DNA from: Nocardioides mangrovicus | GTDB lineage: Bacteria; Actinomycetota; Actinomycetes; Propionibacteriales; Nocardioidaceae | Length of the DNA stretch: 59,627 nt | Direction: 5' to 3' | NCBI RefSeq assembly: GCF_003674065.1 | Contig: NZ_RDBE01000010.1 | Span: forward strand, 1 to 59,627 | In this document: positions 3,975 to 45,573 of the stretch, one piece after another | How the letters are laid out: each line of letters starts with the position of its first letter | How positions within the stretch are numbered: the first letter of the stretch is position 1 | Program-made: the position numbers and the translations under genes | The notes under the pieces: model-generated | What the model was told of the DNA's origin: nothing | The model's database searches: none | Seen by the model: only the letters and a program-made list of their open reading frames with translations

Positions 3975-4001
3975 TATCTTTACAACAAATACAAGGATAA
4001 A
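3975..4001. promoter_or_regulatory. Island operator, copy 1 (divergent promoter)
   Basis: An AT-rich element lies in the 113-nt gap between the divergent hydratase (minus) and SDR (plus) genes. It contains an imperfect inverted repeat, TATCTTTACA (3975-3984) and TACAAGGATA (3990-3999). On the minus strand it reads TTTATCCTTGTA...TTGTTGTAAAG, which aligns with the copy at 37494-37516 with one extra base. Its placement suits control of both operons by one repressor. Confidence 0.6.
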
Positions 4002-4039
4002 GCCAGCGTGGTGCTGGTGAGGTGGAGGCCGCGGAACCG

Positions 4040-4807
4040 ATGACCATCCCCGCTGACGCGTTCTCTCTCGTCGATCGCAGCATCCTCCTCACCGGAGCGA
4101 CCGCGGGACTCGGCCGGCGCTTCGCCGAGGTGCTCGGTGCCGCGGGCGCGCGAGTCGGCGTCGTGGGCCGCCGGGGTGACCTGCTCGAGGAGCTCGCGCA
4201 CGACAACCCCGGCTGCGTGCCCCTTCCCGCTGATCTCTCCGACACTGCCTCGCTCGGCGGGCTCGTCGAGCGTGCAGTGGCCGAGCTGGGACCCATCGAC
4301 GTGCTGGTCAACAACGCGGCGTACATCGCTGGCGGGGTGCGCGCCGAGGACGAGACACCCGAGCAGGTCCTGGAGACTCTGGCGGTCAACCTGATCGCGC
4401 CGATCGCCCTGTCGCAGGCCGTCTACCCGTCGATGAAGGAGCGCGGCCGCGGGGTGATCCTCAACGTCACCTCGATCGTAGCCAGAGCCGGCATCGCCCG
4501 CTTCCCGCAGGCGACGTACGCGGCGTCGAAGGGAGGACTGGAGGCGATCACGCGCGAGTGGGCGGCTCAGTGGAGCCCCCACGGCGTACGGGTCAACGCG
4601 CTCGTGCCGGGGTTCTTCGAGAGCGAGATGACCAGCGGGGTCATCCACCACCCGAAGATCCAGGGGTGGATCCTCGCCAACACCCTGATCCCGCGCCACG
4701 GTCGGCCCGACGACTTCGACGGTGCCCTGCTCTACCTGTGCAGCGACGCCTCGTCGTACGTCACCGGCCAGACCCTGGTCGTCGACGGCGGCTGGACGGC
4801 GCGCTGA
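4040..4807 (+). CDS. SDR family NAD(P)-dependent oxidoreductase
   Basis: A 255-residue classical short-chain dehydrogenase. It has the Rossmann motif TGATAGLG (residues about 17-24), a variant NNAAYIAG, the catalytic YAASK and the C-terminal VDGGWTAR. ATG 4040 is preferred over an in-frame GTG at 4022 because GGTGGAGG lies 12 nt upstream. It overlaps the following flavoprotein gene as TGATG, giving a two-gene operon. SDR plus nitronate-monooxygenase-like protein recalls the IpdF/IpdC pair of steroid C/D-ring catabolism. That link is an analogy from gene content, not shown by sequence. Confidence 0.88.
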   Translation: MTIPADAFSLVDRSILLTGATAGLGRRFAEVLGAAGARVGVVGRRGDLLEELAHDNPGCVPLPADLSDTASLGGLVERAVAELGPIDVLVNNAAYIAGGVRAEDETPEQVLETLAVNLIAPIALSQAVYPSMKERGRGVILNVTSIVARAGIARFPQATYAASKGGLEAITREWAAQWSPHGVRVNALVPGFFESEMTSGVIHHPKIQGWILANTLIPRHGRPDDFDGALLYLCSDASSYVTGQTLVVDGGWTAR

Positions 4808-5784
4808 TGATCCGCACGCCGTTCACAGCCCTGTTCGGCGTCCAGCACCCCGTGGTGTGCGGCGGGATGACCGGTTACGGCACGGCGCCGCTGATCGGCG
4901 CTGTCGCCGAGGCAGGGGCCCTGGGCATGCTCACCGCGCTGACGCAACCCAGCCCCGAGGCGCTGGCCCGCGAGATCGAGCGCACCCGGTCGCTCACCGA
5001 CAAGCCGTTCGGCGTGAACCTCACGATCCTGCCCACCATCCACGAGGTGCCCTACGCCGAGTACCGCGCGGTCGTCGTCGAGTCCGGCATCACCGTCGTC
5101 GAGACGGCGGGCTCGAGCCCGGTCCCGCACCTGCCCCACCTCAAGGCCGCCGGCGTACGCGTCATCCATAAGGCGACCAGCGTGCGTCACGCCCTGGCCG
5201 CCGAGCGTGCCGGCGTCGACGCCGTCAGCATCGACGGGTTCGAGTGCGCCGGGCACCCGGGCCCGGACGACGTCCCCGGCCTCGTCCTGATCCCGGCCGC
5301 TGTCCGCGCGCTGAGCATCCCCGTCATCGCCTCGGGTGGGTTCGCCACCGGCTCCGGGATGGCCGCCGCGCTGGCGCTCGGCGCCGACGCGGTCAACATG
5401 GGCACCCGCTTCATCGCCACCGAGGAGGCCCCGGTCCACCCCCGCGTCAAGGACCGGGTCGTGGCCTCCTCCGAGACCGACACCGTGGTCATCTTCCGGC
5501 CGTTCCGTAACACCGCTCGCGTGGTGCGCAACGCGATCGCGGAGAAGATCGCCACCATCGAGGCCCGACCCGGTGCGACCTTCGCCGACGTCGCCGAGCT
5601 GGCTGCCGGTGCACGCGGGCGGCAGAACGTGCTCGTGGAGGGCGACGTCGACGGTGGGCTGATGTGGGCCGGCCAGGCGATGGGGCTCATCGACTCGGTC
5701 GCGCCCGTGCGCGAGGTGGTCGCGACGATCATGGCCGACGCCGAGGAGCTCCTCGGCCGCCGGCTCCCCGGTCTGCTGGCTTAG
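4807..5784 (+). CDS. Nitronate monooxygenase / 2-nitropropane dioxygenase-like flavoprotein
   Basis: A 325-residue FMN-dependent TIM-barrel protein. It has the N-terminal GGMTGYGTAPLIGAVAEAGALG segment split around the flavin site, the family segment DGFECAGHPG (about 139-148), and the phosphate-binding ASGGFATGSGMAAALALGA (about 176-194) followed by VNMGTRF. Family members oxidise nitronates, but several are really flavin reductases. IpdC of steroid catabolism carries the same annotation. In this CoA-rich context a role on a cyclic enoyl- or keto-acyl-CoA is more likely than nitronate oxidation; this is inference. Its TAG stop overlaps the convergent ligase stop. Confidence 0.85.
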   Translation: MIRTPFTALFGVQHPVVCGGMTGYGTAPLIGAVAEAGALGMLTALTQPSPEALAREIERTRSLTDKPFGVNLTILPTIHEVPYAEYRAVVVESGITVVETAGSSPVPHLPHLKAAGVRVIHKATSVRHALAAERAGVDAVSIDGFECAGHPGPDDVPGLVLIPAAVRALSIPVIASGGFATGSGMAAALALGADAVNMGTRFIATEEAPVHPRVKDRVVASSETDTVVIFRPFRNTARVVRNAIAEKIATIEARPGATFADVAELAAGARGRQNVLVEGDVDGGLMWAGQAMGLIDSVAPVREVVATIMADAEELLGRRLPGLLA

Positions 5785-8210: not shown

Positions 8211-9362
8211 TCACCGGTCCTTCAGCAGCGCGCGAGACAGAAGCAGCCGCTGCACCTCGATACTGCCCGAGGCGACGGTCGCGGCCTGGGCGTAGCGCCA
8301 GTGGTCGTCCACCGCACGCTCGAAGAGCTGGTCGCGGCTGGACGCGCCGGTCGCCCGCTCCTCCAACATGTCCATCAGGACCTCGGCGACCTCCTGGTCG
8401 GTCTGGGTCGCCGCGATCCGGTAGGCGGCGGTGTCGGCCGGGTCCACCTCACCGGTCTCGACGAGCTGGATCACCCGGTAGGCCAGCAGTCGCGACTGGC
8501 GCACGTGGACCAGCGCCGCCGCCCATCGCTCCTTGAGCTCGACGGGCAGCGTCTCCCAGCGGTCGTCGAGCGCGGCGGGGGCCATGTTGAGCAGTCGGTC
8601 GCATCGGGCGTAGCGAGCGATCCCGACGCGCTCGAACGCCAGCGCCTCACGGACGATGTTCCATCCTGCGTCGACCTCGCCCAGCACGTCGTCGCCCGTG
8701 ACGTGGACGCCCTCGAAGAACACCTCGTTGAGGTGGTGGGGACCGACCATCGCCTTGATGGGGACCACCTTGATGCCGGCACGGTCCATCGGCACGAGGA
8801 ACACGGTGATCCCGCGGTGCTTCGGTGCGTCACGGTTGGTCCGGGTGAGCAGGAAGCACCAGTCGGCCATCGTCGCGTACGAGGTCCACACCTTCTGCCC
8901 CTCGACCCGCCAGCCGTCACCGTCCTCGATCGCGGCCGTGCGCAGGGACGCGAGGTCGGAACCGGCCTCGGGCTCGGAGAAGCCCTGGCACCAGATCACC
9001 TCGCCACCGGCGATGCGGCCGAGGTGCTCCTCCTTCTGCTGGTCGGTGCCGAAGCGCATGATCGCCGGACCGACCCAGTTCACGCCCATGTACTGCGCAC
9101 CGCGCGGTTCGAAGTGCGCCCACATCTCCTCGCGCACCACGGCCTGCTCCCACGGTGAGGCCGCGTTGCCGCCGTACTCCACCGGCCAAGCGGGGGTGAG
9201 CTGGTGCTTCTCGGCGAGCAGCCGGCAGAAGGACTGGGCCAGCGCGAGGTCCTGGGGATCGGAGGTGAACGCACCGAGGAACGTGCCGGGCACGTGCTCC
9301 CGCACCAGGCCACGCAGCTCCTGCCGCAGCGAGGCCGCCGCCTCCGAGTCCGAGAAGTCCAC
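8211..9362 (-). CDS. Acyl-CoA dehydrogenase, larger subunit-type (pair 2)
   Basis: A 383-residue enzyme with WCQGFSEPEAGSDLASLR and GQKVWTSYA for FAD/acyl-CoA binding. The C-terminal TVASGSIEVQRLLLSR replaces the usual GGTxEIQR. GTG 9362 (VDFSDSEAAA) is chosen because GGAGG lies 7 nt upstream and the protein then starts like its paralogue at 2140. An ATG at 9422 would almost abut the operator at 9429-9449. It is the first gene of the operon with the smaller subunit and the synthetase. Confidence 0.88.
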   Translation of the reverse strand: MDFSDSEAAASLRQELRGLVREHVPGTFLGAFTSDPQDLALAQSFCRLLAEKHQLTPAWPVEYGGNAASPWEQAVVREEMWAHFEPRGAQYMGVNWVGPAIMRFGTDQQKEEHLGRIAGGEVIWCQGFSEPEAGSDLASLRTAAIEDGDGWRVEGQKVWTSYATMADWCFLLTRTNRDAPKHRGITVFLVPMDRAGIKVVPIKAMVGPHHLNEVFFEGVHVTGDDVLGEVDAGWNIVREALAFERVGIARYARCDRLLNMAPAALDDRWETLPVELKERWAAALVHVRQSRLLAYRVIQLVETGEVDPADTAAYRIAATQTDQEVAEVLMDMLEERATGASSRDQLFERAVDDHWRYAQAATVASGSIEVQRLLLSRALLKDR

Positions 9363-9428: not shown

Positions 9429-9449
9429 TTAATCATTGCAAGTATTAAC
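9429..9449. promoter_or_regulatory. Island operator, copy 2
   Basis: A near-palindrome centred on TTGCAA: plus strand TTAATCATTG followed by CAAGTATTAAC. It is located 66-87 nt before the GTG of the pair 2 dehydrogenase operon. It is the best-formed class I copy and aligns base for base with 23899-23919 and, reversed, with 30036-30056. Confidence 0.72.
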
Positions 9450-10285: not shown

Positions 10286-11463
10286 AAACGCTCGATGATC
10301 GTCGCGTTGGCCATGCCGCCGCCCTCGCACATCGTCTGGAGGCCGTAGCGGCCCCCCGTGTCCTCGAGCTGGTGGAGGAGCGTGGTCATGAGGCGGGTCC
10401 CGGAGGCACCCAGGGCGTGGCCCAGTGCGATCGCGCCACCGCGCGGGTTCATCCGGTCGGGGTCCGCGCCGAGCTCGCTCGCCCAGGCCAGCGGCACCGG
10501 CGCGAAGGCCTCGTTGACCTCGTAGGCGTCGATCCGGTCGATCGTCATCCCCGACCGCTGGAGCACCTTGCGGGTCGCTGGGATAGGACCGGTGAGCATC
10601 ATGAGCGGGTCGTCACCGGCCACGGCGAAGGCATGGAACCTCGCCCGTGGAGTCAGCCCGAGCGCGGCCGCCCTGTCCTCGCTCATGATCAGCACCGCAG
10701 ACGCGCCGTCAGTCAGGGGCGAGGAGTTGCCCGGGGTGATCTGCCACTCCAGGTCGGGGAACCGCTCCTCCATCTCCGAGGTGCGGAACGAGGCCTCGAG
10801 ACCCGCCAGCCCCTCGGCGGTCGTGCTTGGCCGCACCGTCTCGTCGACGACGTGGGAACCGCCGTCGGGCAACCGCACGGGGACCAGCTCGCGGTCGAAC
10901 CGACCAGCGGCCGCGGTCTCGGCGGCCAGGCGGTGCGATCGCGCGGAGTAGTCGTCCAGTGCCGACCGGTCCAGTTTCCAACGCTCGGCGACCAGCTCGG
11001 CGGAGACTCCCTGGTTGACCAGCCCCTCCGGGTAACGCGCGTGCATCCGGCCGCCCCAGAGCTCGCGGCCGAGGGTCGCGGTCCCGATCGGAACGCGGCT
11101 CATCGACTCCACGCCGCACGCCACGACCACGTCGTAAGCACCGGCGATCACGCCCTGGGCGGCGAAGTGGGCCGCCTGCTGGCTGGACCCGCACTGGCGG
11201 TCGATCGTCGTCGCCGGGACCGACTCGGGGAAGCCCGCCGAGAGCACCGCAGTCCGCGCGATGTTCACCGACTGCTCGCCCGCCTGGCTGACGCAGCCGA
11301 CGATGACGTCATCGACCTGCGCCGGGTCCAGACCCTGGCGCTCGACGAGCTGCTCGAGGACGGTCGCCAGGAGGTCGGCCGCGTGAATGCCGGAGAGCGC
11401 ACCTCCGGGCTTGCCCCGGCCACTCGCGGTGCGGATGGCGTCGACGATCACGGCTTGGGGCAT
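10282..11463 (-). CDS. Thiolase (acetyl-CoA C-acyltransferase)
   Basis: A 393-residue thiolase II-type enzyme that cleaves 3-ketoacyl-CoA with CoA. All catalytic residues are visible: Cys91 in DRQCGSSQQA, His349 in ALGHALGASG and Cys379 in MCEGGGMANATI, with the NEAFA box present. ATG 11463 begins MPQAVIVDAIRT, the standard thiolase N-terminus. It is divergent from the reductase gene at 11593, with the shared operator in between. In steroid ring catabolism the same class (FadA6-like) ends the pathway; here that is only suggestive. Confidence 0.93.
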   Translation of the reverse strand: MPQAVIVDAIRTASGRGKPGGALSGIHAADLLATVLEQLVERQGLDPAQVDDVIVGCVSQAGEQSVNIARTAVLSAGFPESVPATTIDRQCGSSQQAAHFAAQGVIAGAYDVVVACGVESMSRVPIGTATLGRELWGGRMHARYPEGLVNQGVSAELVAERWKLDRSALDDYSARSHRLAAETAAAGRFDRELVPVRLPDGGSHVVDETVRPSTTAEGLAGLEASFRTSEMEERFPDLEWQITPGNSSPLTDGASAVLIMSEDRAAALGLTPRARFHAFAVAGDDPLMMLTGPIPATRKVLQRSGMTIDRIDAYEVNEAFAPVPLAWASELGADPDRMNPRGGAIALGHALGASGTRLMTTLLHQLEDTGGRYGLQTMCEGGGMANATIIERL

Positions 11464-11489
11464 CAGGTGAATCTCCCGGTTCCAACTTG

Positions 11490-11508
11490 TAATGTTTATA
11501 AAGATTAA
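11490..11508. promoter_or_regulatory. Island operator, copy 3 (divergent promoter)
   Basis: A palindrome TAATGTTTA / TAAAGATTA (11490-11507, 8 of 9 arm positions pair). Read on the minus strand it gives TTAATCTTTATAAACATTA. This is the class I motif with TTATAA in place of TTGCAA at the centre. It lies 27 nt from the thiolase ATG and about 85 nt from the reductase GTG. Confidence 0.6.
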
Positions 11509-11592
11509 TGCGATGTTACGCTGGTCACTCAGGTGCGTCAATCGACCGGGACGACCCGCCGGGGCCGTCTCCAGGGCACACAGGAGGCGGCG

Positions 11593-12555
11593 GTGCGCAG
11601 CACTCACGAGGAGGTCGAGGTCGCGGTGCGGGTGGTGGACCGCACCGTCGCCGCGGACGGCGTGGTCGTGCTCGATCTCGTGGCCGCGGACGGGGCGCCC
11701 CTGCCGGCCTGGGAGCCGGGTGCCCACGTCGACCTTGACCTGGCCGAGGACCTGTCGCGGCAGTACTCGCTCTGCGGGGACCCGACGCGAACCGGCACCT
11801 GGCGCATCGGAGTGCTGCTGGAGCCACAGAGCCGTGGCGGTTCGCGCTTCGTCCACGACAAGCTGCACGTCGGGTGCGAGGTGCTGGCCCACGGTCCCCG
11901 CAACCACTTCGTCCTCGAGCCGTCGCCCCGCTACGTCTTCGTGGCCGGCGGCATCGGCGTCACGCCGATCATGGCGATGGCCGGCGCCGCCGAGCGCGCC
12001 GGTTCGCAGTGGACCCTGCTCTACGGCGGACGCTCGCTCGCGACAATGGCCTTCCGCAACGAGCTCGAACTCCTGGGGGGTGAGCGCGTCGAGGTGCGCC
12101 CGCAGGACGTGCACGGGCTGCTCGACCTGCCGGCTCTGCTCGCCGCGCCTCGACCCGACACCCTGGTCTACGCGTGCGGCCCCGAGCCGTTGCTCGACGC
12201 CGTCGAGCAGGCGATGACAGCGTGGCCGGACGGCGCCCTTCACATCGAGCGGTTCACGCCGAAGACCTTCGACGAGCCGGCCAGCACCGAGAGGTTCGAG
12301 GTGGAGCTGACCCGCTCCGACCTGGTCCTCACCGTCGCTGCGGACAAGTCGATCCTCGAGACCGTCTCCGAGGCTGGCGTGGACGTGCCGTCGTCGTGCC
12401 AGGAGGGAACCTGCGGCACCTGCGAGACCGTCGTGGTGAGCGGTGAGCCCGACCACCGCGACTCCCTGCTGTCGGCTGCCGAGCAGGAGGCCAACGAGAC
12501 GATGATGATCTGCGTCTCGCGGTCCCGCTGCCCGCGCCTGGTCCTCGACCTGTGA
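11593..12555 (+). CDS. Phthalate-dioxygenase-type reductase (FMN/NAD/[2Fe-2S])
   Basis: A 320-residue electron-transfer protein of the PDR/VanB type. Order: flavin domain (RQYSL, 56-60), NAD domain (AGGIGVTPI, 118-126; YACGP, 193-197), and a C-terminal plant-type [2Fe-2S] domain with Cys269, 274, 277 and 307. The GTG at 11593 has AGGAGG 5 nt upstream and is preferred to the longer frame from 11533. Such reductases normally feed a Rieske oxygenase or a demethylase, but no Rieske oxygenase is in the window. It may serve an oxygenase elsewhere or one of the two P450s. First gene of a plus-strand operon reaching 16555. Confidence 0.9.
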   Translation: MRSTHEEVEVAVRVVDRTVAADGVVVLDLVAADGAPLPAWEPGAHVDLDLAEDLSRQYSLCGDPTRTGTWRIGVLLEPQSRGGSRFVHDKLHVGCEVLAHGPRNHFVLEPSPRYVFVAGGIGVTPIMAMAGAAERAGSQWTLLYGGRSLATMAFRNELELLGGERVEVRPQDVHGLLDLPALLAAPRPDTLVYACGPEPLLDAVEQAMTAWPDGALHIERFTPKTFDEPASTERFEVELTRSDLVLTVAADKSILETVSEAGVDVPSSCQEGTCGTCETVVVSGEPDHRDSLLSAAEQEANETMMICVSRSRCPRLVLDL

Positions 12556-12600
12556 CCTGAGATCTCACCGTGCCGTGAACCCGAGGAGCTGGAGAGCCCT

Positions 12601-13383
12601 GTGACCGAGACATCGAGCGTGCGCTACGAACCCGATCCCGAGCGCCACGTGGCCGTCGTCACCATCGACCGTCCCGAGGCCCGCAACGCGGTGAACGGCG
12701 AGGTCGCCTACGCCATCGAGGCGGCGCTCGACGACGTCGAGACCGACGACGAGCTCTGGGTCACGGTCCTCACCGGCGGGCCACGTACGTTCTGCTCGGG
12801 CGCCGACCTGAAGGTGGTCAGCACCGAAGGGGCCCGGTCGTTCACGACGAGGAAGGGCGGCTTCGCCGGGATCGTCCGCCGCGAGCGACTCAAGCCGCTG
12901 ATCGCCGCGGTGGAGGGACCCGCCGTCGCCGGCGGCACCGAGATCCTGCTCGCCTGCGACCTCATCGTCGCGGGCCGATCGGCGACGTTCGGCATCCCCG
13001 AGGTCAAGCGCGCGATCGTCGCGGCCGGCGGCGGACTGTTCCGCTTGGGTCGCAAGATTCCCCCGACCGTCGCGATGGAGTGGGCGCTCACGGGTGAGCA
13101 GTTCCCGGCCGATCGCGCCTACGAGGTCGGGCTGGTCAACGAGGTGTGCCCCGACGGCACCGCGCTGGAACGAGCCCTGGCGCTGGCCGACCGGATCACG
13201 ACGAATGCCCCGATCGCCGTCCAGCAGTCACGCAAGGTGATGCTCGAGGGCACCTGGGCCGAGGAGGCCGACGCCTGGCGGATGTCTCGGGCCGCCACCG
13301 ACGTCGTCTACCACTCCGAGGACTTCAAGGAGGGCATGCAGGCCTTCTTCGAGAAGCGCCCGCCGAAGTGGAGCAACTCGTGA
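12601..13383 (+). CDS. Enoyl-CoA hydratase/isomerase family protein
   Basis: A 260-residue crotonase-fold enzyme. Oxyanion-hole segments TFCSGADLK and AVAGGTEILLACD are present, and the catalytic-Glu segment FGIPEVKRAIVAAGGG is intact, as is GLVNEV. GTG 12601 follows the reductase by 45 nt, with GAGGAGCTGGAG upstream. It closely resembles the 38769-39515 hydratase (shared G-G-LFR and KRxPxW end), suggesting paralogues acting on related substrates. The stop overlaps the next gene's GTG. Confidence 0.9.
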   Translation: MTETSSVRYEPDPERHVAVVTIDRPEARNAVNGEVAYAIEAALDDVETDDELWVTVLTGGPRTFCSGADLKVVSTEGARSFTTRKGGFAGIVRRERLKPLIAAVEGPAVAGGTEILLACDLIVAGRSATFGIPEVKRAIVAAGGGLFRLGRKIPPTVAMEWALTGEQFPADRAYEVGLVNEVCPDGTALERALALADRITTNAPIAVQQSRKVMLEGTWAEEADAWRMSRAATDVVYHSEDFKEGMQAFFEKRPPKWSNS

Positions 13384-14867
13384 GTGCCCGGGACGTGGTC
13401 GTCATCGGGGTCGGTCAGCTGCGCAGCAACCGGTACAAGGACCCGGCCGGGGCGAGGGAGCCGCTCGACCTGGTCCTCGAGGCAGCACGCACGGCCGCCC
13501 GCGATGCCGGCCTGACCGAGGCGGCCCTCGCCCAGCTCGATGCCATCGGTGTCGTTCAGGTCGTCTCCTGGGCCTACGACGACGTGGCGGGATCGGTCGC
13601 CCGGGGGCTGGGCGCCACTCACGCGAAGACGTTCGAGTCCGGGGTGGGCGGGCACCAACCGGTTGCCGTGCTCGGCGACCTCGCCGCCCGGATCGCCGAC
13701 GGTGGGGCCGAGCTGGCCCTGCTCTGCGGCGGCGAGGCGCAGTCGTCGCTGGAGCTCCTGGGTGCCCACCAGGACCCGGCGGCCGCGGCGGGATGGTCGC
13801 ACGCCCCCGGTGGACCGGTCCCCTTCTCGCGCGAGACCGGTGGCACGGACGCCATGTGGGAGCTGGGGCTGGTGGCGCCGATCCGCGTCTACCCGCTCTG
13901 GGAGAACCGGTTGCGCTACGACCTCCACCAGTCCTTCGCCGAGTCCCAGTCGGCGTCGGCAGCGCTGTACGCGGGGTTCAGCCAGGTCGCGGCCGACAAC
14001 CCCGCCGCCTGGAACCCGCAGCCGGTCACCGCCGAGGAAGTGGCCGAGGTGGGTCCCCGCAACCGCATGGTGTGCTTCCCCTACCCGTTGCTCATGAACG
14101 CCCTCAACCGCGTCGACCAGGCGGCCGCCGTGCTGCTGGGGAGCGCCGAGGCCGCCGACCGGCTCGGGCTGCCCGCCGAGGGCCGGGTCCACGTGCACGC
14201 GACCGCTCTGGACGCCGACTGCGAGGACGTGCTCGAGCGTGCGTCGTACTCCCGCGCGCCGGGAGGCGAACGAGCGCTCGACAGCGCCCTGTCGCTGGCC
14301 GAGGTGTCGGCGGCCGAGCTCGATGTCGTCGACCTCTACTCCTGCTTCCCCGTCGTCCCCAAGCTCGGGCGGCTCCACCTGAACCTCGACGAGGAGCTCC
14401 CGCTCACCGCGACCGGTGGCCTCACGTCGTTCGGAGGCCCGCACAACGACTACAGCTCGCACGCCCTGGTCGCGGTCGTGCATCGCCTCCGCGAGGGCGG
14501 TGGGACCGGTCTGGTCTACGCCCAGGGCGAGTACCTCACCCAGCACGGGGCCACCGTCCTGGGGACCACCCCTCGGCCATACGCCGGCACCGAGGCGACG
14601 AAGGAGCAGCACGGCCCCGTGCCCGTCGACCCCACCTACACCGGACCGCTGACCATCGAGACCTTCACCGTCGAGTACGACCGCGGGGGGGCACCCGCTC
14701 GCGGCTTCGTCCTGGGCCGAACACCTCGCGGTGCACGCACCGGGCTCCGCGTGTCCTCCTCGGACCGGGCGACCCTCGAGGCCCTGGTCGACTCGGAGGC
14801 CGAGGCGATCGGTCGCACGGGACGCGCGGTACTCGACGGCGACCGGCGCCTCTTCACGCTCGGCTGA
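13380..14867 (+). CDS. Thiolase-like acetyl-CoA acetyltransferase family protein
   Basis: A 495-residue thiolase-superfamily protein of the long type with an extra C-terminal domain. Visible family segments are GVGGHQPVAVLGDLA, LLCGGEAQSS, DLYSCFPVVPK and TGGLTSFGGPHNDYSSHAL. Members are annotated as acetyl-CoA acetyltransferase, but few have been assayed. The GTG start 13380 is coupled to the hydratase stop, and the gene is 3 nt ahead of the LLM flavoprotein. Likely a C-C bond-cleaving or forming step after the hydratase. The exact reaction is not readable. Confidence 0.82.
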   Translation: MSARDVVVIGVGQLRSNRYKDPAGAREPLDLVLEAARTAARDAGLTEAALAQLDAIGVVQVVSWAYDDVAGSVARGLGATHAKTFESGVGGHQPVAVLGDLAARIADGGAELALLCGGEAQSSLELLGAHQDPAAAAGWSHAPGGPVPFSRETGGTDAMWELGLVAPIRVYPLWENRLRYDLHQSFAESQSASAALYAGFSQVAADNPAAWNPQPVTAEEVAEVGPRNRMVCFPYPLLMNALNRVDQAAAVLLGSAEAADRLGLPAEGRVHVHATALDADCEDVLERASYSRAPGGERALDSALSLAEVSAAELDVVDLYSCFPVVPKLGRLHLNLDEELPLTATGGLTSFGGPHNDYSSHALVAVVHRLREGGGTGLVYAQGEYLTQHGATVLGTTPRPYAGTEATKEQHGPVPVDPTYTGPLTIETFTVEYDRGGAPARGFVLGRTPRGARTGLRVSSSDRATLEALVDSEAEAIGRTGRAVLDGDRRLFTLG

Positions 14868-14870
14868 CGC

Positions 14871-15728
14871 GTGCGGCTCTCCTTCCACCTCCCCGGTCCG
14901 CGACGCTCAGGTGCGCTGCGGATGTCCGACGTCGTCGCGCTCGCCGAGCACGCCGAGCGGCTCGGGATAGACGCGGTGAGCGCCAGCGACCACCCGTTCC
15001 CCGTCGTGGTCCCCGGGTCGACCGGTCACCACACCTTCGACCCGTTCGTGCTCCTCGCCCAGACGGCCGCCCGGACGACGCGGTTGCAGCTGGTGTTCAG
15101 CCTGCTGGTCGCCCCGTACCGCAACGCCTACCTCACCGCCTCGATGCTGGCGACGCTCGCCGACGCCGCACCTGGGCGGGTGGTGGTCGGTCTCGGCGCG
15201 GGTTACCTCGAGCCGGAGTTCGAGGCCCTCGGTGCCGCGTACGACGGACGTGCGGGTCAGGTCGGTGCGACCGCCGCGGCGATGCGCACCGCCTGGCGGG
15301 GCGAGCCGGTCGGCGCTGCCGGCAACACCCTGCGACCCGTCCCGACCGAGTCCATCCGGCTCTGGCGGGGCGGCAACGGTCCCCGGGCCGCGCGTGAGGC
15401 CGCCGGACTCGACGGCTGGATGCCGTTCGAGGCCGGCACCCGGATCGCCGCGGGCTCCGGCACCACCCGGCTGCGCACCGACGACCTCGCCGAGCGGGTC
15501 GCGGTCTACCGCGAGACCTGCGGGGACCGCCCGGGTGACGTCTGCTTCGTCCGCACCTCGCCGTCGTGGCTCGTCGACCGCCCCCGGGCGGTGGACGAGC
15601 TCGGTCGACTGGCGCAGGCCGGTGTCAGCTGGGTGGAGTCCGGCACCCCCGGCCGCACTCCCGCCGAGGCCAAGGACGATCTCGAAAGGCTCGCCGAGGT
15701 GCGGGCAGAGGCCGCGGTGTCGTCGTGA
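14871..15728 (+). CDS. LLM class flavin-dependent oxidoreductase
   Basis: A 285-residue luciferase-like TIM-barrel protein. It has the N-terminal RLSFHLPGPR strand, the DAVSASDHPFPV loop, the family segment TRLQLVFSLLVAPYRNAYLTA split over about 65-85, and VVVGLGAGYLEPEFEALG (about 105-122). Such enzymes use F420 or FMN. The actinobacterial setting favours F420, but the cofactor is not proven by sequence. Starts with GTG 3 nt after the preceding stop and overlaps the next SDR gene (GTGA), so it is within the same operon. Confidence 0.85.
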   Translation: MRLSFHLPGPRRSGALRMSDVVALAEHAERLGIDAVSASDHPFPVVVPGSTGHHTFDPFVLLAQTAARTTRLQLVFSLLVAPYRNAYLTASMLATLADAAPGRVVVGLGAGYLEPEFEALGAAYDGRAGQVGATAAAMRTAWRGEPVGAAGNTLRPVPTESIRLWRGGNGPRAAREAAGLDGWMPFEAGTRIAAGSGTTRLRTDDLAERVAVYRETCGDRPGDVCFVRTSPSWLVDRPRAVDELGRLAQAGVSWVESGTPGRTPAEAKDDLERLAEVRAEAAVSS

Positions 15729-16555
15729 GGTTCCCCGGACGCGTCGTTCTGGTCACCGGCGGCGCCCGCGGCCAGGGCCGTTCCCATGCCGTCGCGTTCG
15801 CCCGGGAAGGAGCCGACGTCGTGGTCTGCGACCTGTGCGACGACCTCGGGACCAGCTATCCCTCCTCGACCGTGGCGGATCTCGAGGAGACGAGGCGACT
15901 GGTCGAGGCCGTCGGTGGTCGGTGCCTGGCCGTGCGGGCGGATGTTCGCGAGCCCGCGCAGCTGAGGGCACTGGTGGCGCGGGCCAGGACCGAGCTCGGA
16001 CCGGTCGACGTGCTCGTCGCCAACGCCGGCATCCTCGACAACGCTCGCATCGAGGAGCTCGACCCGGTCCGCTTCGACCACGTGCTGGCTACCAACCTCG
16101 GCGGAGTCTTCCACGCGATCCAGGCGGTCCTACCCGACATGCTCGAGCGCCGCGCCGGGCAGATCGTGGCCATCTCCTCGATGGCCGGGCGGCGCGCCTA
16201 CGGACGTGCAGCGCACTACACCGCGTCGAAGTGGGGCGTGATCGGACTGGCCAAGGACGTGGCGCTCGACCTAGCCCCGTTCGGGATCACGGTCAACGTG
16301 GTCTGTCCCGCCAGCGTGAACACCGTGATGGCCGTCAACGACCACCTCGTCCACGCCTTCCTGCCCGACCGCGAGGAGCCGACCCTCGAGGAGTTCGAAG
16401 CCGAGATGGCCAAGCTCCACCCCCAGCAGGTCCCGTGGGTCGAGCCCGAGGACGTCTCGGCAGCCGTGCTCTTCCTGGCCTCGCCCGAGGCCAGGCACAT
16501 CACCGGTGAGGTGATGACGGTCAGCGCCGGGATGATGGCTCAGAACTCGTCCTGA
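15725..16555 (+). CDS. Mycofactocin-coupled SDR family oxidoreductase
   Basis: A 276-residue SDR with TGGARGQGRSHAVAFAREGA, VCDLC, the family insertion, NAG and catalytic YTASKWG. The C-terminus lacks the usual V-DGG and ends TVSAGMMAQNSS. The GQGRSHA motif and insertion place it with mycofactocin-dependent dehydrogenases. Start GTG 15725 overlaps the LLM stop. It is the last gene of the 11593-16555 operon and converges on the CoA-transferase gene with a 7-nt gap. Confidence 0.86.
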   Translation: MRFPGRVVLVTGGARGQGRSHAVAFAREGADVVVCDLCDDLGTSYPSSTVADLEETRRLVEAVGGRCLAVRADVREPAQLRALVARARTELGPVDVLVANAGILDNARIEELDPVRFDHVLATNLGGVFHAIQAVLPDMLERRAGQIVAISSMAGRRAYGRAAHYTASKWGVIGLAKDVALDLAPFGITVNVVCPASVNTVMAVNDHLVHAFLPDREEPTLEEFEAEMAKLHPQQVPWVEPEDVSAAVLFLASPEARHITGEVMTVSAGMMAQNSS

Positions 16556-16562
16556 GCGGCGC

Positions 16563-18842
16563 TCACGTCGACGTCCGCAACGCCCTGCTCAGGGCGTGGA
16601 CCGATCCCGCCGCCACCAGTCCGCTCACCTCCTCGTCGCTGTAGCCGAGCTCGTCCAGGATCTCGCGGGAGTGCTCGCCCAGCTCGGGCACGGACTGCTC
16701 GGGAACCGACTGGCCGAGGCTCCAGAAGCCGGCGACCAGGTCGATGGCACCGTAGCCGCCGGTCTGTAGCCGACGGCTGAAGCCCAGCTCGCGATGGACC
16801 GGTGAGTCCATGAAGTCGTCGAGCTGGTCGAGCCGCACCGGCGCGGCCGCCACGCCGAGGGCGGCCAGCTCGGCCACGGTCGGCTCGACCCGCCGCCCCT
16901 CGAGCGAGGTGCCCACGAGCCACGACGCGTACGCCGCGGCTTCGCGCTCATCGCGGGCGTCGACTGCGAGCCAGCCGTCCTGGAGCTGGTGGATGCGGTG
17001 GGCGGGTCCCACACCCGTCTGCTCGGCATCGAGCCCGGGTGTCTCGGTCACGCCTCCCGCGGGTCGGCGCACGGCGACCTCGGAGGCGGCGGCGATGCCG
17101 ACGGACAGCAACGAGGTGTCGGCCGCACCGGGGCGCCCGGTGGTCGCCAGCGTGTAGAGCCCCAGCACCGCACCGAGGCACGCAGCCAGACCGGCGGTGA
17201 CGTCGAAGACCGAGTTGCGCAGCCAGATCGGCGTCTGTCCCTCACCGGCGTTCGCGTGCTCCCAGCCGGTCATGGCCTGCGCGGTCGGGTCGTAACCCGG
17301 AAAGCCGGCCATCGGCCCGAGGGGCCCGTAGGCGCTGACGTGGCTGAACACCACCGTCGGGTTGCGGCGCCGCAGTCCCGGGCCGTCGAGTCCGAGGCGG
17401 CCCGCCGGACCCAGCCGCATGTTGTGAAGCACCAGATCGGCAGAGGCGACCAGCCGGTCCAGGGCCGCCTGGCCCTCTACACTCTTCAGATCCATGGCCA
17501 GCGACCGCTTACCGCGGTGCGCCCCGGCGAACTGGGTCAGCACACGACCCCGGTCCCCGCTCAGCGGCTCGACCTTCACCACCTCGGCACCGAGGTCACC
17601 CAGGCACTGAGCACCGAACGGGCCCGCGATCGCCGATCCGAAGTCGAGCGCGCGCAGGCCGGCCAGCGGCCGGGTGTCCCCCGCAGCCGTACGCCCCGGT
17701 CGCGGTTCGCGCTGGGACCACCCGGCGAGCACGTCCGCGCAGCGGGTAGATCCGAGCAGTGGTGCCGGTGCACCCACCGCACTCGCCGGCGTGGTCTGCA
17801 CGGGGGTAGCCGCTTGGAGGGCGGGCCCGACAACGGGGTCGTCGACCTCCACGACGTAGCCGTTGACGCCGGCCTGCTGGTCGGTGAAGCACTCCCCCAG
17901 GTGCCGTATCTCGATGCACGGCACGTCGGCTGCGCTGAGCGACTCCAGCCACCAGTCGCACGGCCGCTCACCGAACACCTCGTTCCACGTCGACCAGTTG
18001 CCGGGGGTGACGCCGATCTCAGAGAGGTCGACCAGGTCGGCGAGCGCCAGCGCCTCGAGGACCGGCGGGGACTCGATCCACCCGCCGACCGCGCCGGCGA
18101 GCTGGACCCAGCGGCCGTCGGCACACTCGAAGATCGACAGTGCCGCGTCGGGCCAGATCTTGGGCAGCGTGTGGCGGGTGAGCGTCTCCGGCAGCCGTTC
18201 CCATCGTTGCCAGTACAGCGCTGCCGGCGCGAGGCTCCCCTGGAAGAGACTTGTGGCCACCGGCAGCACCACGCCATCGCGCTCGCGCTGGACCAGCCGC
18301 GCCACGATCCCGGCGGCCAGCGCGTACGCCGCGCACCAGCTGGGGAACGGCATCCGGATCCACACCGGCCCGGGGCGGTTGCCCTGCTGCTCGTCCATGA
18401 ACCCCTCGGCGGCCTGCACCATCGCGTCGGTAGCGTCGAGGTCCGCGAGCGGGTGCCCGACGGGATAGCCGGGCACCGAGGCCACCAGGAGGTCGGGGTG
18501 GCGCCCGGCCAGGGTCTCGTCGTCGAGACCGAGCTCGACGGCGCGGGCCGCCGGCAGGTCGTGGACCACCACGTCCGCGCGCGCGAGCAGCTCGTCGAGG
18601 CCGACGCGCCCCGAGGCGTCGTCGAGGTCGATCACCACCGAGCGCTTGGCCCGGTTCCACCCGGCGAAGCCGACGACGCGCAGCTCGCGCTCCGGGTCGC
18701 CACCGGGTCTCTCCACCTTGACCACATCGGCGCCGGCCTCGGCCAGAACCCGGGTGGCGAAGGGGCCGGCCAGGCGGGAGGTCAGGTCGACGATGCGCAC
18801 CCCGGACAGCGGCGGCTGCTCCATGCGACGACTCTCACTCAT
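16563..18842 (-). CDS. Fused double CaiB/BaiF (class III) CoA-transferase
   Basis: At 759 residues this is about twice the family length, with two class III CoA-transferase domains in tandem: about 10-375 (begins LSGVRIVDLTSRLAGPFATR) and about 390-755 (begins LAGLRALDFGSAIAGPFGAQ). The second half has VFDVTAGLAA, matching the catalytic Asp of formyl-CoA transferase. The first half has MPFPSWCAAYALAAG at that place, so its Asp is missing. ATG 18842 is used; ATG 18824 is an alternative. It would move CoA between acyl chains without ATP. Last gene of the minus-strand P450 operon. Confidence 0.87.
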   Translation of the reverse strand: MSESRRMEQPPLSGVRIVDLTSRLAGPFATRVLAEAGADVVKVERPGGDPERELRVVGFAGWNRAKRSVVIDLDDASGRVGLDELLARADVVVHDLPAARAVELGLDDETLAGRHPDLLVASVPGYPVGHPLADLDATDAMVQAAEGFMDEQQGNRPGPVWIRMPFPSWCAAYALAAGIVARLVQRERDGVVLPVATSLFQGSLAPAALYWQRWERLPETLTRHTLPKIWPDAALSIFECADGRWVQLAGAVGGWIESPPVLEALALADLVDLSEIGVTPGNWSTWNEVFGERPCDWWLESLSAADVPCIEIRHLGECFTDQQAGVNGYVVEVDDPVVGPALQAATPVQTTPASAVGAPAPLLGSTRCADVLAGWSQREPRPGRTAAGDTRPLAGLRALDFGSAIAGPFGAQCLGDLGAEVVKVEPLSGDRGRVLTQFAGAHRGKRSLAMDLKSVEGQAALDRLVASADLVLHNMRLGPAGRLGLDGPGLRRRNPTVVFSHVSAYGPLGPMAGFPGYDPTAQAMTGWEHANAGEGQTPIWLRNSVFDVTAGLAACLGAVLGLYTLATTGRPGAADTSLLSVGIAAASEVAVRRPAGGVTETPGLDAEQTGVGPAHRIHQLQDGWLAVDARDEREAAAYASWLVGTSLEGRRVEPTVAELAALGVAAAPVRLDQLDDFMDSPVHRELGFSRRLQTGGYGAIDLVAGFWSLGQSVPEQSVPELGEHSREILDELGYSDEEVSGLVAAGSVHALSRALRTST

Positions 18843-28205: not shown

Positions 28206-28504
28206 CAGTCTGAGGACGGCAGGTTCTTGGCCTGCTTCACGCCGAGCACGGTCCCACCCACACGGAGCTGACCGGCGCCGGGCCTGGTGCACAGCAGCTC
28301 CAGGCCCGAGCCAGGATCGCTGTACCGCTTGCCGACCAACGTGCCGGGCCCGTCCTCGCCGACCGCCTCCTTCGTCTCGGCCGGCAGCGGCGCCATGGGC
28401 TGACCTCCGCAGGTCAGGTCGACGTCCTGCGAGGGCGGGCGGACTACGATCACCTCGGTGTCGCAGACGGTGCTTCCCAGTCGTTCACCGACGATGGGGA
28501 TCAC
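28205..28504 (-). CDS. Small protein of unknown function between two aldehyde dehydrogenases
   Basis: A 99-residue protein starting VIPIVGERLG, with three cysteines (about 14, 32, 72) in the settings STVCDTE, LTCGGQP and LLCTRPG. It has no signal peptide, membrane segment or domain that I recognise. Start GTG 28504 with AAGGAG about 12 nt upstream. It is translationally coupled to the following aldehyde dehydrogenase (TGATG) and 28 nt from the preceding one. The C-terminal KRYSDPGSGLELLC region could be a metal-binding or rubredoxin-like fragment, but this is not supported enough to name. Confidence 0.75.
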   Translation of the reverse strand: MIPIVGERLGSTVCDTEVIVVRPPSQDVDLTCGGQPMAPLPAETKEAVGEDGPGTLVGKRYSDPGSGLELLCTRPGAGQLRVGGTVLGVKQAKNLPSSD

Positions 28505-30035: not shown

Positions 30036-30056
30036 CTTAATGATTGCAAGGATAAG
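30036..30056. promoter_or_regulatory. Island operator, copy 5
   Basis: Plus strand CTTAATGATTG followed by CAAGGATAAG. The reverse strand gives CTTATCCTTG then CAATCATTAAG, nearly identical to copy 4. It lies 46 nt upstream of the aldehyde dehydrogenase GTG and just 6 nt from the stop of the SDR gene that ends at 30062. The aldehyde dehydrogenase operon therefore has its own promoter. Confidence 0.7.
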
Positions 30057-30892: not shown

Positions 30893-30916
30893 TTCATGGC
30901 TCCTCTCCTCATCCGT

Positions 30917-30999
30917 CGCGACCGGTTCCGGTCGCGGACCGTGGGGAGGTCGCGCCGGCGACCTCCCCACGGAGTCAAGCAGCCCGCGCGGTGCGGGCT
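30917..30999 (-). terminator. Three consecutive hairpins between transporter and SDR genes
   Basis: Perfect inverted repeats lie in the 114-nt gap: AGCCCGC/GCGGGCT (30981-30999, loop 5); CCGTGGGGAGGTCGC with its complement (30939-30953 and 30958-30972, 15-bp stem, 4-nt loop); and CGCGACCGG/CCGGTCGCG (30917-30936, 2-nt spacer). No T-run follows on either strand. In high-GC actinobacteria such structures can terminate transcription or protect the 3' end of the binding-protein mRNA. Confidence 0.65.
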
Positions 31000-31006
31000 C
31001 GCGCCG

Positions 31007-35764: not shown

Positions 35765-35787
35765 CATGTCATCTTGACAAGGATTAA
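35765..35787. promoter_or_regulatory. Island operator, copy 6
   Basis: Minus strand reads TTAATCCTTGTCAAGATGA then CATG; the centre is CTTG-T-CAAG (class II, one base longer than class I). It lies 60 nt upstream of the livHM ATG. A second inverted repeat, ATGAAAA/TTTTCAT (35789-35795 and 35802-35808), sits beside it. Confidence 0.65.
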
Positions 35788-37493: not shown

Positions 37494-37516
37494 CTTTACA
37501 ACTTGACAATGATTAC
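37494..37516. promoter_or_regulatory. Island operator, copy 7 (overlaps a start codon)
   Basis: Minus strand GTAATCATTGTCAAG then TTGTAAAG; class II. It lies 45 nt from the DUF35 ATG (37449) and overlaps the hydratase ATG at 37509. TACAAC at 37497-37502 could be a -10 box for a leaderless hydratase transcript. Confidence 0.65.
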
Positions 37517-41050: not shown

Positions 41051-41073
41051 GTTATCTTTTACAAGTTGGCAAC
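41051..41073. promoter_or_regulatory. Island operator, copy 8
   Basis: Plus strand GTTATCTTTTACAAG then TTGGCAAC, aligned with copy 7 at 16 of 23 positions. Located 20 nt upstream of the synthetase GTG at 41031. The remaining gap up to 41196 holds no convincing gene. Confidence 0.58.
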
Positions 41074-41196: not shown

Positions 41197-41943
41197 TCAC
41201 TCGACCGGGACGGGGACGACCGGGCCCAGCACCGCTCCCCCATCGACAACCCACTCCGAGCCGGTGCTGTACGTCGCATCCGCGGCGAGGAAGAGGACGA
41301 GCTTGGTGACCTCGTCCGGCTCACCGAGCCGCGGGATCGGCTGTTGGCGGTAGGACTCCTCGGTCACGTCCTTGGTCATCGGCGTCACCACTCCACCGGG
41401 ATGCACGGACAGCACGCGGATGTGATCCGGAGCGAACTCCAGCGCGGCCGCCTTGGTCAGCCCGCGCACACCCCACTTCGACGCCACATACGCCGCCTCG
41501 TTGGCGAAGCCGATCAGGCCAGCAGTCGAGGACACGTTGATGATCACGCCGTGGCCGCTTCTGCGCATCGACGGCACCACCTCGCGGATGCCGATGAACT
41601 GACCGGTCAGGTTGATGTCCACGACCCGGCGCCACTCGGCGGTCGTCACCGCCTCCCAGGGCTTCCACTGCACGACGCCGGCGTTGTTGAGCAGGATCGT
41701 GACCGGGCCCAACTCCTGCTCGGCGTAGGCCACCACAGCGGCCCACTGCTCGTCGACGGTGACGTCGAGCCGGAAGAACCGGGCGGAGTCGCCGAGCTCG
41801 TCGACCAGCGCCCGGCCGGCATCCTCCGCGATGTCCGCGACGACGACCTGCGCCCCCTCGGCGACCAGTCCCCGCACGTGGGAGGCGCCCATGCCACTGG
41901 CACCGCCGGTGACGATGGCGACCGCGCCCTTAAGCTTTCCCAT
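41197..41943 (-). CDS. SDR family oxidoreductase (3-hydroxysteroid/alcohol dehydrogenase-like)
   Basis: A 248-residue SDR. It carries TGGASGMGASHVRGLVAEGA, ADIAED, NNAGVVQW, catalytic YVASKWGVRG and the C-terminal WVVDGGAVLG. The TGGASGMG pattern is frequent in 3-alpha/20-beta-hydroxysteroid-type dehydrogenases, but this is weak evidence for substrate. ATG 41943 overlaps the TetR gene by 14 nt, so it is co-transcribed with the regulator. Confidence 0.88.
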   Translation of the reverse strand: MGKLKGAVAIVTGGASGMGASHVRGLVAEGAQVVVADIAEDAGRALVDELGDSARFFRLDVTVDEQWAAVVAYAEQELGPVTILLNNAGVVQWKPWEAVTTAEWRRVVDINLTGQFIGIREVVPSMRRSGHGVIINVSSTAGLIGFANEAAYVASKWGVRGLTKAAALEFAPDHIRVLSVHPGGVVTPMTKDVTEESYRQQPIPRLGEPDEVTKLVLFLAADATYSTGSEWVVDGGAVLGPVVPVPVE

Positions 41944-42568
41944 GGTGATCCCCTCTCGAGACCGGCGACGCCTCGTCGACCGGCGAGTCGGTGGTGAACC
42001 AGGCCGGCAGCACCCGACGCAGCTGGACGGCGACCCACTGCGCCGAGAGGTCGTTCCCCTCGCGCAGCCAGGACGCGACGACGCCGAGCGCACCGGCGGC
42101 TACGAAGCGGGCCAGCACGAACGGGTCCACATCGTCCGGCAGGTCGCGAACGGCGCTCAGCGTCCGCACGTTCTGAGCCGTGAACGCGTCCTCGACCGCC
42201 TGGTAGAAGTCGCCCGAGCGCAGCAGCGGCCCGTAGACCTCGCGCCGCGCACCGACGAACCGTGCGACCTCCAGCAACGACTTCTCACTCGTCTCGGCAT
42301 CGTGCCCGCATCCACGCCCGGTCGTGTCGATGGACGCCACGAGGTCGAACACCTCGGTCAACGTCTCGACCGCCAGTGCGTCCAGGCTCGCGAAGTGCGC
42401 ATAGAACGACGTGCGGTTGACCCCGGCTCGCCGCACCAGCGCGCTGACCGTCACCGGCTCGGGCAGCTCGGCCAGCCCGGCGAACGCGTCGACCAGCTTC
42501 GCGCGCGTCCGCGACGCACGCACATCCGCACTGCCCACCATGCGCTGGCGTGTGACGGCGTTGCCCAT
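41930..42568 (-). CDS. TetR-family transcriptional regulator
   Basis: A 212-residue regulator. The helix-turn-helix is TVSALVRRAGVNRTSFYAHF (about 39-58), with a helical ligand-binding domain behind it. ATG 42568 is 34 nt after the P450 stop, so it may be read from the FprB-P450 transcript as well as its own promoter. A TetR-style inverted repeat lies just upstream (42585-42606). It differs from the shared island operator, so this TetR may control only the local FprB-P450-TetR-SDR unit; this is inference. Confidence 0.9.
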   Translation of the reverse strand: MGNAVTRQRMVGSADVRASRTRAKLVDAFAGLAELPEPVTVSALVRRAGVNRTSFYAHFASLDALAVETLTEVFDLVASIDTTGRGCGHDAETSEKSLLEVARFVGARREVYGPLLRSGDFYQAVEDAFTAQNVRTLSAVRDLPDDVDPFVLARFVAAGALGVVASWLREGNDLSAQWVAVQLRRVLPAWFTTDSPVDEASPVSRGDHHGKA

Positions 42569-43826: not shown

Positions 43827-45517
43827 CGCTCCTCCGACCCGGCACCGGCTGCGACCAGGCCACCGTGCGCCGTCCGCAGCATGTCGTCCACCCTTGTCAG
43901 CTTGACCCGGGGCCGGCCCGACGCCTCGCCGGCCTGCACCTCGGCGCGGTCGATCGCTCGCCACCCCTGGAGGTCCAGGTGCTCCGGCAAGGCGTCCACC
44001 AGATCGTCGGAGAGCCGCGGCGTCGGCAGTCGGCCCTCGACGAAGTCGTCGAGCAGGGCCCCGACCGTCTCTTTGGCGCACTTCTTGTTGGTACCGATGA
44101 CGCCGGAGGGTCCCCGCTTGATCCACCCCGTCACGAACACGCCAGGGAGAACCGCGCCGAGCGCCGACTCGAGGACGCGTCCGTGGTCGTTCGGCAGGAT
44201 CGCGCGTGTGTCGTCGAACGGCAGGCCTCCGACGTTCTTGCCCCGGTAGCCCACAGAGCGCAGCACGAGCCCGCACGAGAGGTCCTCGTACGCGCCCGTC
44301 GGCCTGGCGATCGGCGACCCGTCCTGCTCGACGAGCTCGTTGTGCAGCAGGCGCACGCCCTCGACGCGCTCGGAGCCCAGGATCTCACCCGGTGAGGCCA
44401 GGAAGCGCATCGTCACCCTGCGCTCGCGTGCCGGCTCCTCGGTCCCCAGCCGCCTGAGGAGCTCGGTCTTGCGAGGGCCCATCACGAAACGGTCGCCGTC
44501 GTCCTGCGGATGCTCGACGACGAGCTCGTCTCGGCGGACGACCAGGTCCACGTCGGCGAGATCCACGAGTCCCAGCAGCTCGGGTGTCGTGAAGGCCGCC
44601 TGCGCCGGACCGCGGCGACCCGCGACCACCACCTCCCGCACGGCGCTGGCCGCCAGCTGCTCGAGGGCGTGGTCGGCGATGTCGGTGCGGCGGAGGCGGT
44701 CGATGTCGCTGACTAGCACGCGGGCGACGTCCAGCGCGACGTTGCCGTTGCCGAACACCACCGCCCGCTCGCCGGACAGGTCGAACGAGCGATCGGCGAA
44801 GTCGGGATGGCCGTTGTACCAGGCGACGAACTCGGTCGCGGAGTGACTGCCGGCCAGGTCCTCACCGGGGATATCGAGCGGCCGGTCGCTCATGGCTCCG
44901 ACGGCATAGACGACGGCGTGGTAGCGACCCATGAGGTCCTCATGGGTCAGGTGAGTGCCCACCTCGACGTTGAGGAACAGACGGAACCCCTGACGCCGCA
45001 TGGTGCGGGCGAAAGTATCGGTGACCGACTTCGTGGCCTGGTGGTCAGGAGCGACGCCATAGCGCACGAGACCCCCCGGCACCGGTAACCTCTCGAACAT
45101 GTCCACCTGGGCCCCCAGGTGACGCTGGGCGAGCAGCTCCTCAGCGGCGTAGCAGGCCGCAGGCCCCGATCCCACTATGGCCACCTTCAGCGAGCGGGTC
45201 GCATCTGCCTCCCACCGCCGCCGCCGGGTCCTTTTGGGGTTCTGGGCGTAGGAGGCCCGCACCGGGTCCTCGTAGTAGCCGGCATTCAGGTCGAGGTAGG
45301 GCACGAAGCGATCCGGCAGGTCGAAATCGGGCGCGATCGCCCCCACCGGACAGACGTCGAGGCACGCACCGCAGTCGATGCAGCCCTGCGGGTCGATGTA
45401 CAGCATCTCCGCGGTCGCGTAGTCGGGCTCGTCGGGCGTGGGATGGATGCAGTTGACTGGACACACCGGGACGCACGCCGCGTCGTTGCAGCAGTTCTGG
45501 GTGATCACATGCGTCAC
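43823..45517 (-). CDS. FprB-like ferredoxin-NADP+ reductase with N-terminal ferredoxin domain
   Basis: A 564-residue protein. Its N-terminal 7Fe-type ferredoxin has cysteines at 9, 15, 19, 23 and 46, 49, 52, 56 (NCIHPTPDEPDY and DCGACLDVCPVGAI segments), fused to an adrenodoxin-reductase-type FAD/NADPH module starting at VAIVGSGPAACYAAE. The start VTHVITQNCCND matches the FprB N-terminus, so GTG 45517 is preferred over the longer frame. It passes electrons from NADPH to P450s, first the overlapping P450 gene, and perhaps the 22722 ferredoxin. Confidence 0.92.
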   Translation of the reverse strand: MTHVITQNCCNDAACVPVCPVNCIHPTPDEPDYATAEMLYIDPQGCIDCGACLDVCPVGAIAPDFDLPDRFVPYLDLNAGYYEDPVRASYAQNPKRTRRRRWEADATRSLKVAIVGSGPAACYAAEELLAQRHLGAQVDMFERLPVPGGLVRYGVAPDHQATKSVTDTFARTMRRQGFRLFLNVEVGTHLTHEDLMGRYHAVVYAVGAMSDRPLDIPGEDLAGSHSATEFVAWYNGHPDFADRSFDLSGERAVVFGNGNVALDVARVLVSDIDRLRRTDIADHALEQLAASAVREVVVAGRRGPAQAAFTTPELLGLVDLADVDLVVRRDELVVEHPQDDGDRFVMGPRKTELLRRLGTEEPARERRVTMRFLASPGEILGSERVEGVRLLHNELVEQDGSPIARPTGAYEDLSCGLVLRSVGYRGKNVGGLPFDDTRAILPNDHGRVLESALGAVLPGVFVTGWIKRGPSGVIGTNKKCAKETVGALLDDFVEGRLPTPRLSDDLVDALPEHLDLQGWRAIDRAEVQAGEASGRPRVKLTRVDDMLRTAHGGLVAAGAGSEER

Positions 45518-45554
45518 AGCGAGCGGCTCCAACCGTCCGACACGAAGTCTTGCC

Positions 45555-45573
45555 TCATCATGACAAAGATTGT
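45555..45573. promoter_or_regulatory. Island operator, copy 9 (divergent promoter)
   Basis: Minus strand reads ACAATCTTTGTCATGATGA, matching copy 6 at about 15 of 19 positions. It lies between FprB (start 45517) and the small plus-strand gene (45601). It is the weakest clear member and the last one before the tRNA-Ala gene. Confidence 0.5.

Follow-up and report, generated by a model that had tools for sequence, protein, structure and literature searches.

An AT-rich palindrome at the promoters of a Nocardioides mangrovicus catabolic island, the probable operator of an FCD-GntR regulator

The left end of contig C19 (1,132,003 bases) of Nocardioides mangrovicus (genome of 4.108 Mb in 23 contigs) carries a catabolic island whose promoter regions share an AT-rich element, raising the question of whether this element is a single operator and, if so, which regulator reads it. 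We analysed bases 1-59627 of this contig, a stretch of 59,627 nucleotides that begins at the contig edge and is called the window below; gene calls and family scans place the island between the contig start and about 45.8 kb. Two regulators are encoded within the island, the FCD-GntR protein g1 and the TetR protein g40. A preliminary description of the window had listed AT-rich elements in nine gaps between genes, had taken them for one operator of a single regulon, and had left open which of the two proteins binds it. Our conclusion, with a probability of about 0.85, is that the FCD-GntR protein encoded at 148-993 uses as its operators these nine elements together with a tenth at 57-76 and three on another contig, C22.

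A palindromic site at the promoters of the island

To limit circularity, we trained a scoring matrix on relatives only, namely on the islands of six further genomes in which the coenzyme A (CoA)-transferase g16 has a relative: one from the same family (G118), three Pseudonocardia and two Amycolatopsis. Half-sites from the window served to find the first seeds in these six. An initial 26-bp matrix was replaced, since it included copies shifted by 9 bp (105 overlapping places). The final palindromic 20-bp matrix was built from 51 sites in the six related islands, not all of them independent because two of the genomes (G294 and G295) are near-identical here; all site scores below are in bits of this matrix. 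The ten best places in the window were the nine gaps (16.4-35.0 bits) and positions 57-76 (18.9 bits), and the eleventh scored 6.1 bits. All nine elements were found where the preliminary description had placed them, and all ranked at the top, but its inventory had overlooked the tenth, which lies in the promoter of the GntR gene; a site stands at the same place before GntR in 6/6 related islands.

The site added by this analysis is numbered operator 10. Operator 1 (3973-3992, 16.4 bits) lies between g4-g2 (-) and g5-g6 (+), operator 2 (9429-9448, 29.9 bits) before g9-g7 (-), operator 3 (11489-11508, 35.0 bits) between g11-g10 (-) and g11b-g15 (+), operator 4 (23899-23918, 29.3 bits) between g21-g16 (-) and g22-g23 (+), and operator 5 (30037-30056, 27.4 bits) before g27-g24 (-). 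Operator 6 (35768-35787, 25.1 bits) precedes the transporter operon g32-g28 (-), and operator 7 (37497-37516, 20.7 bits) separates g34-g33 (-) from g35 (+), whose start is uncertain, gene calling putting it upstream of the operator. Operator 8 (41051-41070, 18.7 bits) precedes g38-g36 (-), and operator 9 (45554-45573, 20.1 bits) lies between g42-g39 (-) and g43 (+). Counting the region before GntR, and with two gene starts assigned by hand, 10 of the 12 gaps of at least 60 bp to the left of a tRNA-Ala gene (45957-46032) carry a site; the two site-free gaps (21368-21486 and 30893-31006) both separate genes of the same direction. None of the four gaps of at least 60 bp to the right of tRNA-Ala carries one, and the only place beyond 46 kb among the window's top 20 scores 0.5 bits, in agreement with the earlier statement that the element stops there.

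The site is one palindrome of 20 letters with the consensus gTAATCTTTgcAAAGATTAc. Counted from the centre, the best-kept positions are A at 7 (94%), T at 3 (91%), T at 2 (77%) and C at 5 (74%); the matrix centre reads TTT-G/A|C/T-AAA, with the central G at 49% and no invariant GT/AC. The nine elements had been called near-identical, a wording too strong for a mean of 12.6 of 20 shared letters (range 8-17, 36 pairs). They had also been divided into two classes, the second with one extra central base. Using the half matrix of the relatives, we found zero spacing to be best in 9/10 own sites, including the site at 35765 (25.1 bits at zero versus 13.1 with one extra base) and, in a near tie, the site at 37494 (20.7 versus 20.2). 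The extra-base class is mostly a register artefact, and the two-class description should be dropped. Weaker half-sites were observed 9 bp outside the palindrome, where the mean score peaks at -4.2 and -6.2 versus about -14 (40 sites); part of this peak may come from the pseudo-symmetry of the half-site itself.

Matrix scans covered the window, 400 kb of the same contig, C22, loci of paralogues and short stretches, and the whole genome was covered by pattern scans. Across the 400 kb (20 stretches of 20 kb) the best score was 14.9 bits, and no place reached 16. None of 295 column-permuted matrices gave ten hits in the window (mean 0.43, maximum 4). AT content alone was rejected as the cause: among 44 AT-rich 20-mers in the 400 kb, 3 scored at least 12 bits and none at least 16. 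The pattern TWAWCNTTRYAANGWTWA, with up to 3 mismatches, matched the whole genome at 14 positions, 12 of them in the island (11 on C19:58-45572, 2 of these overlapping a neighbour, and 1 on C22) and 2 elsewhere; the backward control also gave 2. By this pattern the motif is at control level outside the island. A looser pattern with 1 mismatch matched 21 places, 10 in the window island, 2 on C22 and 9 elsewhere, with 2 for the control. Loose matches elsewhere thus outnumber the control, yet none scores like an island site, the best of the nine reaching 14.9, 13.0 and 11.8 bits when all were scored with the matrix and the weakest island site 16.4. A covariance model run on seven genomes returned 41 rows, 39 on island contigs and 2 representing one other place (G296:C112:150337), which stands before a related acyl-CoA dehydrogenase gene; in the six relatives this model recovers its own training sites. 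With the three on C22, the genome has 13 sites of its own, of which the covariance model detected 4, the looser pattern 9 and the TWAWCNTTRYAANGWTWA pattern 10. The genome scans, the six related islands and the rarity of the motif elsewhere support the proposal of a single, island-confined regulon with one operator.

Linkage of the site to the GntR gene

The presumed regulator, g1, is encoded on the + strand at 148-993 (a start at 112 is possible). It matches PF00392 (50.9 bits) and PF07729 (30.4 bits), both above cut-off, and its predicted structure (predicted local distance difference test score, pLDDT, 88) matches FCD-GntR structures with E values down to 2e-7 and mostly modest TM-scores. 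A GntR relative of 60-78% is present at the island in 6/6 other genomes, and the gene is therefore conserved in 7/7 with our own. The site lies upstream of GntR in 7/7 genomes, six of which are in the training set. Outside that set, GntR was matched at 1e-50 in 18 genomes besides our own among a sample of 393 of the class; these homologues have 40-50% identity, and the matrix was not trained on any of them. The 250 bp upstream of these distant homologues contain a site of at least 13 bits in 17/18 cases and of at least 16 bits in 14/18; block-shuffled sequences gave a mean of 0.79/18 at 13 bits (maximum 4). The gene most often adjoining GntR in the distant genomes resembles g9, an acyl-CoA dehydrogenase gene (8211-9362, -) with relatives of 78-85% in 6/6 islands; a g9-like gene of 62-74% is near GntR in 14/18 distant loci. 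We found eight larger regions with 1-4 sites each, located in other genomes or at other places in the Amycolatopsis genomes; 8 of the 14 sites in total lie directly before a GntR or g9-like gene. The loci of eight FCD-GntR paralogues in our own genome score at most 2.0 bits.

Close GntR copies come in pairs in all three Pseudonocardia genomes (L016-L018, L021-L023); they are 64-70% identical to the window protein, and a division of labour between the two on one operator is possible. In Amycolatopsis, extra GntR or g9-like clusters with the same operator (L090-L093, L096) occur in island-bearing genomes, and cross-regulation between these clusters and the island is likewise possible.

From the sequence we infer physical binding by g1, repression and an inducer, as follows. 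A GntR dimer would read TAATCTTTG|CAAAGATTA, one half of the palindrome on either side of the centre, in many cases with a weaker half-site 9 bp further out, and would repress the island together with its own gene, which is most likely autoregulated. An intermediate of the pathway would free the operator; this inducer, probably a carboxylate or a ligand of CoA type, would bind in the FCD pocket. Repression is the most likely mode because the sites lie close upstream of start codons and overlap presumed core promoters: all 19 sites, taken per transcription unit, overlap a predicted core promoter in a lenient test. That GntR is instead an activator, or acts jointly with a second regulator, is unlikely. 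The distance from site centre to assigned start ranges from 13 to 136 bp over the 19 transcription units and in some cases could suit an activator; FadR-type proteins can both activate and repress, and the paired Pseudonocardia copies would fit joint action. The core-promoter overlap speaks against activation, as does the site in the GntR promoter itself, a position usual for autorepressors.

It is much less probable that the TetR protein g40 (41930-42568, -; PF00440) is the operator's regulator and that GntR acts on something else. The TetR gene does lie inside the site-controlled operon g42-g39, and TetR proteins often bind palindromes of such length. However, close relatives of g40 occur in only 2/6 other genomes, the two Amycolatopsis (47-48%), making 3/7 with our own; G118 and G297 have no match, G294 and G295 have one match each (31% and 38%), and all four still carry operators. 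The operator also follows the GntR gene into other families. The shared motif, its restriction to the island, its conservation and its linkage to GntR rather than to TetR are computed observations; on the choice that the preliminary description had left open, the evidence points to GntR (7/7 versus 3/7), with TetR judged unlikely. Least probable of all is a role as core promoter elements, or as the target of a special sigma factor, in place of regulator binding. In favour of such a role, the TTGCAA or TTGACA sequence is similar to a -35 box, with -10-like hexamers 16-18 bp downstream at g21, g22, g27 and c9. Promoter elements, however, are general, and this site occurs in the rest of the genome no more often than its control; it is also a palindrome located between divergent genes, and predicted promoter boxes vary in position against it among operons.

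Recognition helix, ligand pocket and points against the assignment

In the FCD-GntR protein Atu1419, Arg45 reads an essential guanine, the change of which abolished binding, and this arginine is called typical of the family (PMC7797058). We examined the equivalent position (residue 41) in 40 close homologues of g1, chosen from 120 listed of 199 found, and observed A in 22, G in 14 and Y in 4. The FCD-GntR paralogues of our own genome have Arg there in 7/7 aligned, the eighth having been missed by the profile; the 18 distant homologues have 15 Y, 2 R and 1 K. An A, G or Y at this position fits an operator that lacks the usual GT/AC signature; the unusual operator and the loss of this guanine-reading arginine go together. 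Residue 31 is D, E or N in the 40 homologues and carries less weight because it is variable among paralogues. Despite the loss of Arg45, g1 remains a member of the FCD-GntR family, as a variant, because membership rests on its domains. In the pocket, histidines 149, 202 and 224 are invariant (40/40), as is Arg146; the Asn/Asp metal position (145) is not kept (A 25, S 12, G 2, C 1), and therefore the ligand may be held differently.

On balance, and with modest confidence, we favour a history in which this FCD-GntR clade dropped a near-universal arginine and came to use a palindromic, AT-rich operator of a new kind. The circuit would be local in distant actinobacterial relatives, comprising the regulator's own gene and the neighbouring acyl-CoA dehydrogenase operon; in the island lineage (Nocardioidaceae, Pseudonocardia, Amycolatopsis) the operator would have spread to the promoters of an entire pathway, as yet undescribed, that acts on a branched alicyclic substrate. 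The island-wide spread of the operator would then be a derived state.

Several observations weigh against the assignment to GntR or against parts of it. The site at 3975 scores best with 3 extra central bases (22.3 bits versus 16.4 at zero). The promoter predictions carry little weight and favour AT-rich DNA. Column-permuted matrices applied to the 18 distant promoters, near-identical permutations included, gave a mean of 2.4 at 13 bits, with a maximum of 17 once in 500, and a maximum of 12 at 16 bits; the sites of these homologues are also not independent, because the homologues are mutually related. One homologue, L081, has no site (6.7 bits), and two others, L076 and L078, keep Arg yet have an upstream site. 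Of the four lowest upstream scores, three (15.4, 13.7 and 6.7 bits) belong to the distant homologues with R or K; this is in line with a change of specificity, though these homologues are few in number.

The island, its probable missing end and known regulators

According to family scans, the island encodes acyl-CoA dehydrogenases (g2/g3, g8/g9, g22), crotonases (g4, g12, g35, g37), CoA ligases (g7, g18, g38), thiolase-like proteins (g11, g13, g33), cytochromes P450 (g19, g41), aldehyde dehydrogenases (g25, g27), a Liv-type transporter and short-chain dehydrogenases/reductases, g10, g15 and g28 among them scoring above the cut-off of the mycofactocin-coupled family TIGR03971; names from NCBIfam scans are mostly at family level. 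The CoA-transferase g16 (16563-18824, -) has two family III stretches in a single chain by family scan, and is present in 2/294 genomes searched in the family Nocardioidaceae, our own included. A 99-residue protein, g26 (28205-28504, -), has 57-70% identity to relatives in 6/6 islands; it has no Pfam match, and none of its 65 database relatives has a functional name. The P450 assignment of g41 is by Pfam, with no solved relative at 1e-40, and g20 is ferredoxin-like by eye only, Pfam at 1e-10 giving no match. At its right end the island adjoins tRNA-Ala, a common insertion point for islands, with other genes beyond. To the left of tRNA-Ala, 17/44 genes have, in every one of the six related genomes, a match of 50% identity or more that covers half their length or more; to the right, 1/14 has a match, a weak one in one of the six.

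Contig C22 (18,825 bases) carries its three sites (19.1-23.5 bits) beside c7/c8, c9 and c14. The product of c9 has relatives of 53-69% in 6/6 islands, those of c10, c11 and c12 in four, and those of c8 and c14 in one. Positions 10855-18415 (L121) hold genes of island type, for crotonases, a CoA-transferase, an amidohydrolase, a thioesterase, a TIM-barrel protein and a Vgb-lyase-like propeller. Judged by these features rather than by a spanning sequence, C22 is probably the missing end of the island.

Among solved structures, the best relatives of g9 are Tcur3483 and a 4x28 acyl-CoA dehydrogenase, that of g33 is the lipid-transfer protein 6ok1, and those of g19 are CYP125MRCA and P450cin. The first three serve steroid side-chain breakdown, and the set suggests terpenoid- or sterol-side-chain-like chemistry, nothing narrower. 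No description of this pathway or regulator was found in the literature searched (most subscription journals lay outside its scope), and six literal forms of the site had no match in openly licensed papers. With the proposed circuit, about 50 genes of an unassigned catabolic island can be tested as a single regulon for which a candidate regulator is named, and the 20-bp probe has already pointed to the probable missing end on another contig. The circuit would also be a natural example, from a very large family of regulators, of altered DNA specificity in which the changes in protein and DNA are both visible.

KstR and KstR2 are TetR regulators of steroid catabolism with many sites over a large catabolic gene set. 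As had been claimed, the site described here is unlike theirs, the matrix motif differing from the consensus quoted for each; the regulator co-conserved with the site is moreover a GntR rather than a TetR protein. With the FCD-GntR regulators Atu1419, CGL2915/LldR, TM0439 and NanR, g1 has in common the two domains, matching structures, a palindromic AT-rich operator and a site in its own promoter; unlike them, it and its homologues have A, G or Y at the Arg45 position and no Asn/Asp at 145, and there is no invariant GT/AC pair in the operator. Histidines 149, 202 and 224 are spaced like the zinc site of Atu1419 (His141, His192 and His214; PMC7797058). GT-Nx-AC is the operator consensus of the FadR subfamily (PMC4494728), and the looser form TNG(N)nCNA (PMC7797058) matches only those sites here with TTGCAA-type centres. 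The extra half-sites at 9 bp resemble the additional half-site boxes that lie 7-12 nt away for many GntR proteins (PMC4494728), and in NanR three dimers bind a row of repeats cooperatively (PMC4494728, PMC8012715). NanR and BioR are precedents for FCD proteins that do not read a GT/AC palindrome (PMC4494728; for NanR also PMC8012715): NanR recognises direct repeats of TGGTATAW and BioR recognises TTATMKATAA (PMC4494728), whereas the repeat in the catabolic island is inverted and longer, and has C five and A seven positions from the centre.

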